A DNA stretch of 37,692 nucleotides from positions 1-37,692 of the forward strand of contig RHBS01000005.1 in the NCBI GenBank assembly GCA_010030895.1, given 5' to 3'. How positions within the stretch are numbered: position 1 is the stretch's first letter; each line of letters begins with the position of its first letter. Both the position numbers and the translations under genes were made by a program. This DNA is from Actinomycetota bacterium (lineage in GTDB: Bacteria > Actinomycetota > Actinomycetes > Nanopelagicales > Nanopelagicaceae). This document shows positions 26,979 to 33,437 of this stretch, piece by piece. The notes under the pieces are model-generated. The model was not told the DNA's origin. It made no database searches and saw only the letters and a program-made list of their open reading frames with translations.

Positions 26979-27495
26979 TTAGAAAGTTGCCAATTGACGA
27001 CAGATATTCTCAACAAAATATTTGTGCACCCTATTATCTCCGGTTAATTCAGGATGAAATGAGGTTGCTAGCAAATTTCCTTGACGCACCGCAACTGGGT
27101 GAATTACACCAGAGGGATCAGATACTTCAGCAAGTACCTCTACCTCATTTCCAACTGATTCCACCCATGGTGCGCGAATAAATACTGCACGGATCTTGGG
27201 TTCTGTAATTCCCTTGAACTTTAGATCGGTTTCAAATGAATCTATTTGCCTTCCAAATGCATTTCTTCTTACAACCATATCAATTCCACCAAAACTTTCT
27301 TGACCCTCTGCTGCATCCTTAATTTTATTTGCTAATAAGATCATTCCAGCACACGAACCATAGGTAGGCATACCACTGATTATTCGATCTGAGATTAAAT
27401 CAAATAAATCAAATGATCGAGCCAATTTGGCAATTGTTGTTGACTCTCCGCCAGGAATTACCAAAGCTGAGATGCTTTGTATATCGCTCTTTGTT
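26979..27495 (-). CDS. pdxT: Pyridoxal 5'-phosphate synthase glutaminase subunit, N-terminus missing (junction with adapter)
   Basis: PdxT-frame reading resumes after the adapter as ...[28 protein letters not shown] and retains [10 protein letters not shown] and SFHPELTGD. The normal start region (about 30 codons) is absent; the ORF-track start is an internal TTG. Confidence 0.9.
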
Positions 27496-27522
27496 CTGTC
27501 TCTTTATACACATCTGACGCTG
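27496..27522 (-). other. Residual Illumina Nextera (Tn5 mosaic end) adapter sequence
   Basis: Plus strand CTGTCTCTTTATACACATCTGACGCTG versus Nextera CTGTCTCTTATACACATCTGACGCTG(CCGACGA): identical except one extra T in the TT run. Confidence 0.95.
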
Positions 27523-28122
27523 TTTTACCAACTCATACGGAGCTTGCATATCCTTAGCCGCAACAAACAACTCATCCTCACGCATTGAGGTTAGTCGACG
27601 AATCTCGGAAGAGATTGAACGCATGTGTGTAGTTGCGTTTGAAACATCTCCTGTTCCAGCCTCACCCTTTGATCTAATCATGGCGGCACCCTCATTAATA
27701 CGGCGAAGTGCTTCGCCTAAATTAGTTGCACCACAAACAAATGGAATAGTGAAATTCCACTTATCAATATGATTTGAATAATCTGCAGGTGTTAAAACTT
27801 CTGATTCATCAATGTAATCCACGCCAAGTGATTGCAAAACTTGTGCCTCAACAAAATGGCCAATTCGAGCCTTAGCCATTACTGGAATAGAAACCGCCTC
27901 TTGAATCGCTGCGATCATATCTGGATCAGACATTCGAGCCACTCCACCTTGGGCACGAATATCTGCTGGCACGCGCTCTAGCGCCATTACCGCAACTGCA
28001 CCTGAATCTTCGGCAATCTTTGCTTGCTCGACATTAACAACATCCATAATTACGCCGCCCTTTAGCATCTCTGCCATGCCGCGTTTTACTCGTGCCGTTC
28101 CTGTTTCCTTGGCCATCACCAC
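27523..28122 (-). CDS. pdxS: Pyridoxal 5'-phosphate synthase subunit PdxS, C-terminus missing
   Basis: [81 protein letters not shown]; then reads into adapter-derived residues (CIKRQ). The expected GGIATPADAA...GSGIF C-terminal region is absent. ORF-track tail 27409-27522 is not genuine PdxS. Confidence 0.93.
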
Positions 28123-30862: not shown

Positions 30863-31712
30863 TTATCCATATCCGCTGCAACATATGCCAATCAACTGGA
30901 GACTCCTTTATTCGCTTGGCAAAGTTATCCGCCATTGATTGGGTCACAATCTTAATTTGCTCCTCTTGACTTCCAGATATTGGCAATTTTATCGTTTCAT
31001 CAAAGGTTATTTCGATCCCATTACTTAAGTAACGTATATATGCAGTAAGTAATGGGGATCCACTTTTTAAAGCTAAAATCGCAGGACCCGAAGGCATTTT
31101 TGCAATACCACCCATGAAATCTACTTCAATTCCATTTCTTGACATGTCCCTATCAGCAACAAGCGCTACTAATTTACCGGCCGCCAATCTTTCTAAAAGA
31201 ATTGGGATAGTTTTTTCTTTGTGACTAATCGGCTCAATCCCAATACTTGATCGATACTCCAAAAACTTCCTAAATATCGCTTCGGGCTTTAACTTTTCCA
31301 CTACCGCAGTCAATGTTATTCCTGTTGAACAGAAATATGCTGCAGCATGATCCCAATTTCCAGCATGTGGTAGGGCTACGATGCATCCTTGCTTTAATGC
31401 AATTGGGTCTCGAAGCAAGTTCTCTCTTTTAACAGTTGTGCTATCAATAATCTTTGATTTACTCCAGGTATTTAACCGAAAGGTATCAAACCAGTATCTC
31501 AAATATGATCTCATTCCTAATTTGGTCAAATTTTCAAGTTCACTATTTGAAATTTCAGGAAGAACTTTTCGGTAATTACTACGAAGGCGCTTGATTCCTT
31601 TTCCATTCCGCTTGAAAAAATAATCTGCAACTAAATTTGCTACTTGATAAGCAGTTTTTTCAGGCAGTAACGATATTATTTTCCAAGCAAGAAGATATAC
31701 TAAATACACTAC
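30849..31712 (-). CDS. Phosphatidylinositol mannoside acyltransferase (LpxL/HtrB superfamily)
   Basis: LPHAGNWDHAAAYF (HxxxxD), between pimA and pgsA. ORF-track start 31781 probably over-extended; VVYLVYLLAWK start overlapping pgsA stop is more plausible. Confidence 0.88.
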   Translation of the reverse strand, partial: VVYLVYLLAWKIISLLPEKTAYQVANLVADYFFKRNGKGIKRLRSNYRKVLPEISNSELENLTKLGMRSYLRYWFDTFRLNTWSKSKIIDSTTVKRENLLRDPIALKQGCIVALPHAGNWDHAAAYFCSTGITLTAVVEKLKPEAIFRKFLEYRSSIGIEPISHKEKTIPILLERLAAGKLVALVADRDMSRNGIEVDFMGGIAKMPSGPAILALKSGSPLLTAYIRYLSNGIEITFDETIKLPISGSQEEQIKIVTQSMADNFAKRIKESPVDWHMLQRIWINEEN

Positions 31713-32305
31713 TTCACCGCTTTGTACACAATCATCATTCTTTGATACACAGTAAAGAGAGAAATCAAAGTAACAATCCATAATCCAATAGCCATCGCAT
31801 AATCAACACCTAAGCCGTGAAGTCCGTAAGCCGCAAGCACGATTATTAATCGCTCACTTCTCTCCGCTAATCCTCCAGTACAAGAAATCGATAGCGATTC
31901 TGCTCGAGCTCTGATGTAGGAGACAAGAAAGGAGGCTGAAACTGCAATTAAAAATAGAACTACGAGTGGATCTGAAGTTTGATTGAAAAAGAGAAAACCG
32001 CCAAAAAAGATGGCCGCATCACTTGCACGATCTAAAGTGGAATCCAATAACGCACCCCATGCGTTTTCTCCCTTGTTTGATGCCCTTGCCACTGCGCCAT
32101 CAAAGAGATCTGAGAGCACAAACAGACAGACGAAAACCACCCCAATAAAAAACTCACCTTTCGGGAAAAAATATAAGGCGCAAAATATCGTTCCAAAACC
32201 GCCAATTGTCGAGATCGTATTTGCGCTCACGCCTAAATTGACCAATTTCTTTACGACCGGAGAGATAATTTTGGCGACTGGATCGCGTAATGAACGCTGC
32301 AACAT
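31709..32305 (-). CDS. pgsA: CDP-alcohol phosphatidyltransferase (phosphatidylinositol phosphate synthase)
   Basis: SDLFDGAVARASNKGENAWGALLDSTLDRASDA (DGxxAR...GxxxD...D). Internal ATG at MLQRSLRDPV preferred over ORF-track start 32359. Confidence 0.92.
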   Translation of the reverse strand: MLQRSLRDPVAKIISPVVKKLVNLGVSANTISTIGGFGTIFCALYFFPKGEFFIGVVFVCLFVLSDLFDGAVARASNKGENAWGALLDSTLDRASDAAIFFGGFLFFNQTSDPLVVLFLIAVSASFLVSYIRARAESLSISCTGGLAERSERLIIVLAAYGLHGLGVDYAMAIGLWIVTLISLFTVYQRMMIVYKAVK

Positions 32306-32330
32306 AATTCCCATCGTAGGCTTACCACCG

Positions 32331-32924
32331 ATGAGTAACCTAATTAACGCTCGGTTCATACTCGGAATTTCTCCTGAGAATCAGCAAATCGCTACCGCTT
32401 TAGGGTTGCCAGTAGCAGATATCCAAGATCCAACTTTAATTACAGCTGATGTAGTTGTAGTGGTCGCAAGTGCGAAAACTGGAATTGATTCAAAGATTCT
32501 AAATAATTGGCCCACATTTCGTGAGTTATATATTCCAACGATTGTAATAGTGATTGATTTTGAGGATGGTGACGTTGATTTTGAAGATATGTGCGCAATT
32601 GTGGGAAGGATGCTAGAACCGGTTTTAACTCCCTATTTAGTCCTTCATGCAGATGATGGCCAGCCAACCGCCGTAATAAATCTTGAGGATCAAATGATTA
32701 CAGATTACTCAGCTGGTAAGGCTTCACATATTCCGAGTGAAAAAGAACATCGCGAATTAGTTTTAGATTTTAAAGAGGAGTTATCAGCAGCTCTAAGTGA
32801 AGGTGGTTGGGATCAGTTTGTTCAAGGATTGCTCATCCCAGCAATTCCACTTATTTTCAAAAATAATTTGGGTATTGCTGAAGTAAAGCGATTTTTAAAT
32901 ATGATTCCAACCAGAGGCCAGTAG
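32331..32924 (+). CDS. Divergent EF-G-like G-domain remnant, ~198 aa, without recognisable P-loop/NKxD
   Basis: ATG start MSNLINARFILGISPENQQ. LITADVVVVVASAKTGIDSKILNNWPTFRELYIPTIVIVIDFEDGDVDFEDM and LIPAIPLIFKNNLGIAEVKRFLNMIP resemble the EF-G G-domain (ADxxVVVxDAxxGV...IPxIVxxNKxDxxxADF; PVLxGSAxKNxGVxxLLDxxxxxxP). Confidence 0.5.
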   Translation: MSNLINARFILGISPENQQIATALGLPVADIQDPTLITADVVVVVASAKTGIDSKILNNWPTFRELYIPTIVIVIDFEDGDVDFEDMCAIVGRMLEPVLTPYLVLHADDGQPTAVINLEDQMITDYSAGKASHIPSEKEHRELVLDFKEELSAALSEGGWDQFVQGLLIPAIPLIFKNNLGIAEVKRFLNMIPTRGQ

Positions 32925-33437
32925 CGCCCTACTATCCTGAAGTAATTGCGGAAGTACCTTAGTCTTTCCAATTATCGGCATAAAATTTGAATCACCCGCC
33001 CACCTTGGAACCACATGTTGGTGAAAGTGGCCAGCAATACCAGCACCGGAGACACTTCCTTGATTTATGCCAACATTAAATCCAATCGCATTACTAACCT
33101 TTCTCAATACTTTCATGGCATGTGCGGTAAGTGCGGTAACCTCATTTTGCTCTGATGTAGTTAGTTCTGGTAACTCAGCCACATGTCGGTTGGTACAAAT
33201 TAAAAGATGCCCTGCGTTATAAGGGTAGAGATTCATGACAACATAAGCCTCTTTGCCTCGAAAAACTATCAAAGCCTCTTCATCATCTAAATTTGGAATT
33301 CGACAAAATGGGCATTCAATTTCATTTCCAGGAAGCGGCCTATTTTCTCCCTCTAAATATGACATTCGATGTGGTGCCCAAAGTCGCTGCCAATTATCAG
33401 GCATTCCTGCGCCACCAGAAATAGATTTATCTGACAT
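32895..33437 (-). CDS. HIT family hydrolase/AP4A phosphorylase-like protein
   Basis: CPFCRI, NLYPYNAGHLLICTNRHVAEL, GIAGHFHQHVVPRW (HxHxHxx). Confidence 0.93.
   Translation of the reverse strand: MSDKSISGGAGMPDNWQRLWAPHRMSYLEGENRPLPGNEIECPFCRIPNLDDEEALIVFRGKEAYVVMNLYPYNAGHLLICTNRHVAELPELTTSEQNEVTALTAHAMKVLRKVSNAIGFNVGINQGSVSGAGIAGHFHQHVVPRWAGDSNFMPIIGKTKVLPQLLQDSRALLASGWNHI

Follow-up and report, generated by a model that had tools for sequence, protein, structure and literature searches.

A shortened EF-G2 descendant, putatively a pseudo-GTPase, at the pgsA-HIT locus of Nanopelagicaceae

Pseudo-GTPases and divergent EF-G paralogues are both known already. Eukaryotic pseudo-GTPases such as CENP-M and the dynein light intermediate chain keep a G-domain fold without nucleotide binding and use it for protein interaction, and the EF-G2 of Bacteroides thetaiotaomicron is a paralogue reported to be active without GTPase activity. 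Actinobacteria have an EF-G2 of their own (NF009377/PRK12740; FusA2 in Mycobacterium), a protein of about 715 amino acids (aa). Here we describe a 197-aa protein related to this factor, encoded in a window of 37,692 nucleotides (the whole stretch of DNA analyzed) from a genome of the Nanopelagicaceae; by its named relatives, the window belongs in or next to Candidatus Nanopelagicus. The protein is homologous to actinobacterial EF-G2 over EF-G2 positions 99-214, and its gene occupies the chromosomal site that EF-G2 has in most families sampled, divergent from pgsA and toward a HIT gene. In contrast to EF-G2, however, it is without the P-loop, switch I/II, NKxD, a canonical G5 motif, domains II-V, and the acidic G' helix. 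The B. thetaiotaomicron factor is likewise an EF-G paralogue, one in which GTP hydrolysis is dispensable, but it is a full-length multi-domain factor, whereas here the G/G' module stands alone. With the eukaryotic pseudo-GTPases the protein shares a G domain without nucleotide motifs, known here from sequence; those proteins derive from small or other GTPases, while this one derives from a translational GTPase and has lost switch I/II and beta2-beta3. In the open-access literature we found no paper that treats elongation factor G together with either Nanopelagicales or pseudoGTPase, nor any description of a free-standing pseudo-G-domain protein from a translational GTPase that is universal in a family and paralleled elsewhere.

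The pgsA-HIT locus and its EF-G2-like gene

The features of the locus are listed in Table 1. The open reading frame is intact, its translation reproduces the residues quoted in the first-pass annotation, and it lies divergent from pgsA as that annotation had described, with overlapping 5' ends. The HIT gene is of the actinobacterial ATP adenylyltransferase type, with a score below the cut-off of that model, and the other genes around the locus are thrS, a PIM acyltransferase gene (above cut-off), and a pimA-like glycosyltransferase gene. The conserved block upstream of the start codon holds TAGGCT, a sequence of the TANNNT type, 8 bp before the ATG, which is a leaderless distance. The block may be a leaderless promoter, or its conservation may be due to its overlap with the 5' end of pgsA. 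Elsewhere in the window, a pdxS-like ORF (27409-28122, minus strand) is only 237 aa long and seemingly goes out of frame, possibly through a frameshift or an assembly error.

Table 1. Coordinates of the EF-G2-derived gene, its parts, and the adjoining genes in the window
Feature	Position	Strand	Remarks
EF-G2-derived ORF, putative pseudo-G-domain protein, 197 aa	32331..32924	+	ATG at 32331, stop at 32922-32924 (included)
pgsA (phosphatidylinositol phosphate synthase)	31709..32359	-	NF045883 above cut-off; divergent, 5' overlap of 29 bp
HIT family gene	32895..33437	-	convergent, 3' overlap of 30 bp
CATCGTAGGCTTA block	32312..32324	+	just 5' of the ATG; invariant among 10 members of the genus
beta1/P-loop/alpha1 remnant (ARFILGISPENQQIATALGL)	32349..32408	+	from alignments; P-loop lost
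Junction, about 60 EF-G2 residues missing (switch I, beta2, beta3, DTPG/switch II)	32409..32444	+	from occupancy
beta4-alpha3-beta5, former G4 motif, and DFED start of alpha4	32445..32588	+	from alignment; IDFE substituted for TKLD
Most constrained stretch, codons 81-120 (DVDFEDMCAIVGRMLEPVLTPYLVLHADDGQPTAVINLED), alpha4 and G' beta strands	32571..32690	+	from pN/pS; secondary structure from model
Junction, acidic G' helix of EF-G2 (ESEDESLMDRYL...) missing in 200-aa forms	32805..32816	+	20% occupied
beta6-alpha5 remnant, altered G5 motif	32817..32906	+	from alignments; PAIP in place of PVLGSA

The NCBIfam EF-G2 model NF009377 matched residues 36-151 of the 197-aa protein (E = 8e-9; 34 bits over model positions 99-214) and all 14 sampled Nanopelagicaceae members, at best with 4e-20 and ahead of canonical EF-G models; the 197-aa protein fails the curated cut-off of this model, which is 890 bits over about 700 positions. 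Alignment by hhalign of the family profile with a profile of full-length actinobacterial EF-G2 gave a probability of 99.7% (E = 4e-25). Furthermore, a PDB search with the family profile retrieved Mycobacterium smegmatis EF-G2 on the 70S ribosome (9k0z, 2.4e-14) and Thermus EF-G2 (1wdt, 6e-10). Pfam was uninformative with the single window protein sequence (GTP_EFTU, 0.18), and chaperonin epsilon matches in a single-sequence PDB search (0.013) were spurious and disappeared when the profile was used. A search of viral contigs gave no relatives, and plasmids gave one weak match.

On the basis of the NCBIfam, PDB profile, and profile-profile matches, we assign the relative specifically to EF-G2 (EFG II). 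As judged from these profiles and from gene order, the results show that the gene descends from this subfamily and sits at the ancestral EF-G2 locus. The first-pass annotation had called the homology to EF-G by eye, and the call was borne out, the profiles pointing to EF-G2; the term EF-G-like can be refined, as EF-G2 is closer than canonical EF-G. Resemblance to the back part of an EF-G G-domain, as stated there, is real, but the protein also keeps a beta1/alpha1 remnant at its N-terminus, in which the P-loop is dead. The other two sequence observations were reproduced: the protein contains no GxxxxGK[ST], and its IDFED does lie at the NKxD position, IDFE aligning with TKLD of full-length EF-G2.

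Lost and retained parts

The P-loop region reads ILGISPENQ in the window protein and is GHPSAD-like in other family members, in place of GHSGAGKTTL in full-length EF-G2. The segment carrying G2 (switch I) and the G3 DxPG motif (switch II) is deleted, EF-G2 positions 47-108 showing an occupancy of only 14% among the 200-aa forms. The G4 motif [NT]KxD is absent; most members of the family have other non-motif residues instead of IDFE. Domains II-V are missing (0-2% of their positions occupied in the 200-aa forms). The long helix after the G' beta strands is retained in these forms as well. The acidic G' helix region missing here is, we presume, the L7/L12 stalk-contact region of the factor; the helix was identified as such after PMC3150367. 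Since the nucleotide-site motifs are lost, we infer that the protein works independently of nucleotide, a reading that leaves room for binding of GTP or GDP by an unusual mode as far as the sequence alone can tell.

With genus sequences as input, AlphaFold gave a weak model (pLDDT 55) whose helices and strands followed the expected order; the top Foldseek matches of this model were Thermus EF-G2, EF-G, and RF3, with poor superposition. Statements on the fold therefore rest mainly on homology. Beta2 and beta3 are edge strands of the G domain, and from the known G-domain topology their removal would leave a plausible four-strand parallel sheet. The 197-aa protein would thus be expected to fold as a compact alpha/beta sheet (beta1-beta4-beta5-beta6) bearing the G' beta meander.

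Distribution and reduction of EF-G2 in actinobacteria

Most of the other actinobacterial families that were sampled have a full-length EF-G2, with intact GHSGAGKTTL, DTPG, and TKLD, beside a divergent pgsA, usually between pgsA and HIT. These copies carry RQQRSV, which corresponds to qqRSV, the form of the G2 motif described for actinobacterial EFG II (Margus et al., PMC3150367). In 18 of 20 outgroup genomes, an EF-G2 scoring above 890 bits was accompanied by a lower-scoring canonical EF-G. The exceptions are G040 and G058, in which thrS directly adjoins pgsA (loci L110 and L111, respectively) and HIT and EF-G2 are both gone from between; the two genes were lost together from this site in both lineages. 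In G038 and G039, EF-G2 did not adjoin pgsA or HIT in the stretch read.

Among the genomes of the window's order, the 113 Nanopelagicaceae genomes that are at least 90% complete, none had a full EF-G2 above the NF009377 cut-off, and a profile found the shortened form in 110 of them, covering 12 genera and including genomes of about 1.2 Mb. In the remaining three (G081, G129, and G148) there was no proper pgsA match, and the HIT gene was missing too, so the locus is probably unassembled and the result was not taken as true absence of the gene. When occurrence and length of the gene between pgsA and HIT were compared as the first-pass annotation had proposed, the full form of about 715 aa elsewhere was found to be replaced in Nanopelagicaceae by forms of 195-235 aa, or of 330-363 aa in an early-branching genus. 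An EF-G gene of the genome that carries the window (G000:C13:19662-21352; L001, L002) appears to be disrupted by a frameshift and a TGA close to the end of a contig. This is probably an assembly error, and whole EF-G genes are present in relatives.

Genus g5, which branches first within the family with a support of 100 on a tree of neighbouring genes, has a form of 354-363 aa (L066:5941-6927, L098, and L099) with a degenerate P-loop region, without the switch regions, and with the G' helix region. It carries an extra C-terminal tail of roughly 100 aa, in which EF-G domain V was suspected by eye; hhalign, Pfam, and scores against shuffled tails lent this no support. Reduced EF-G2s at the pgsA locus were also found in two other families (loci L115-L117 and L120-L146), where HIT adjoins too as far as the contigs reach. 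Those of f38 are about 320-360 aa (g84) and about 223 aa (g104) long, and those of f33 are 198-201 (g93), 232-249 (g86), 262 and 423 (g97), 377-422 (g78), and 352-363 aa (g62/g91). In genus g78, full (711 and 762 aa) and reduced EF-G2 both occur. Switch II is missing from every reduced form and the P-loop from most, several reduced members of g78 retaining a GKT-type P-loop; a DTPG string in g93 is a chance match within the N-terminal stretch and not a real G3 motif. The part from beta4 to G', by contrast, is 94-100% occupied in all reduced forms.

Full and reduced forms are interleaved on the neighbouring-gene tree, which implies at least five reductions if reduction is irreversible and inheritance vertical. 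A tree of the retained region, however, places all reduced forms in one clade with 93% support, and AU tests rejected the strict species-tree topology (p = 7e-6), as would be seen if the reduced form had arisen a single time and then passed from one actinobacterial family to another by recombination. We consider such a single origin rather unlikely compared with repeated reduction. Because the reduced forms have long branches, their mutual attraction is likely; coarse vertical inheritance was not rejected (p = 0.09), nearly every lineage has the gene at the same syntenic site, and sizes and deletion patterns vary between lineages.

Selection and candidate roles

Among 19 genus members, the median dN/dS was 0.076 outside the overlaps and 0.087 over the full ORF, and the same method gave 0.062 for HIT, 0.134 for PgsA, and 0.076 for the PIM acyltransferase. 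Close, unsaturated pairs gave 0.03-0.10. In the genus, pN/pS was lowest (0.07-0.10) at codons 81-120, downstream of the former nucleotide site. Moreover, within the family F147, E150, P173, H106, and P112 are near-invariant, whereas EF-G2 varies there or has other residues, and these new positions argue for a remodelled function against residual constraint. Purifying selection on the remnant is strong, and the protein has gained invariant positions of its own. Frames are open throughout the genus with one exception, a copy outside the 113-genome set on a contig binned as Bacteroidetes (L049:1170-1693), which lacks about 65 bp internally and is frameshifted, reflecting either true loss of the gene or an error of assembly.

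These values bear on whether the gene is a decaying EF-G2 pseudogene that is being lost as genomes are streamlined. The gene has been shortened and lacks the motifs, relatives carry a full EF-G2 at the locus, the streamlined G040 and G058 dropped EF-G2 together with HIT from the thrS-pgsA interval, and one copy is broken. Yet dN/dS is about 0.08, no worse than that of the adjoining genes, the gene is kept in nearly all near-complete genomes of 12 genera, even in the small ones, and its invariant residues were not dictated by the ancestor. Decay, contradicted by dN/dS and retention, is thus extremely improbable. The first-pass annotation had suggested a selected rather than a decaying protein and had named dN/dS as a check; the ratio, in line with the neighbouring genes, the open frames, and the retention all agree with it. 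It had also anticipated that relatives might carry a full EF-G paralogue here beside a neutrally decaying copy. The former is the case, but the window copy does not show neutral decay. With G-domain homology, nucleotide motifs gone, and selection and retention as above, the protein is classed as a putative pseudo-GTPase.

Quite probably, in our view, the gene is an EF-G2 that has been remodelled and greatly shortened, that would now be neither GTPase nor translocase, and whose G/G' part would be retained to bind a protein. Such a protein would bind its partner without GTP via the alpha4/G' face, and the first candidates for the partner would be the ribosomal stalk-base site or a former partner of EF-G2. 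Counting against this explanation are the lack of the acidic, stalk-linked G' helix in the 200-aa forms and the broken copy at L049.

As for the kind of partner, one version of the shortened-EF-G2 explanation is a GTP-free ribosome factor at the G'/stalk-base site of EF-G2, for example a hibernation factor or an EF-G antagonist. The retained part is the G' module, the M. smegmatis EF-G2 binds 70S ribosomes (PDB 9k0z), and the G' tip has been reported to show higher conservation in EFG II than in EFG I (PMC3150367); this conservation and the 70S binding make a stalk-base partner a reasonable candidate. The parts through which EF-G contacts the stalk, the sarcin-ricin loop, and the decoding centre, namely the acidic G' helix, switch regions, and domains III-V, are missing, however, and we regard the ribosomal role as doubtful. 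Its simple version is weakened by the missing helix, and simple bL12 stalk binding was discarded as the kept role because that helix is deleted in Nanopelagicaceae. Loss of the main ribosome contacts of EF-G would instead suit recruitment to a non-ribosomal role, in regulation or scaffolding linked to pgsA or another partner. The long-standing divergent pairing with pgsA would fit as well, but it is older than the reduction and so provides no special evidence, and we know of no functional link between the 197-aa protein and pgsA. A non-ribosomal partner is therefore a tentative proposal that falls somewhat short of an even chance, and we rate it slightly higher than a ribosomal one.

The reduced forms can be viewed as natural deletion experiments, in which several lineages drop the GTPase site and four domains and keep the same part, which points to where a non-translocase function of EF-G2 is located. 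We hold it evenly balanced whether the beta4-to-G' module has a GTP-independent function separable from translocation, with lineages independently stripping the rest and leaving a pseudo-GTPase family. A compact protein of 200 aa offers a handle for finding the partner of EF-G2. The smallest form is found throughout one of the most abundant families of freshwater bacteria, and because it is universal despite heavy gene-loss pressure on their genomes, the gene likely matters to Nanopelagicaceae.
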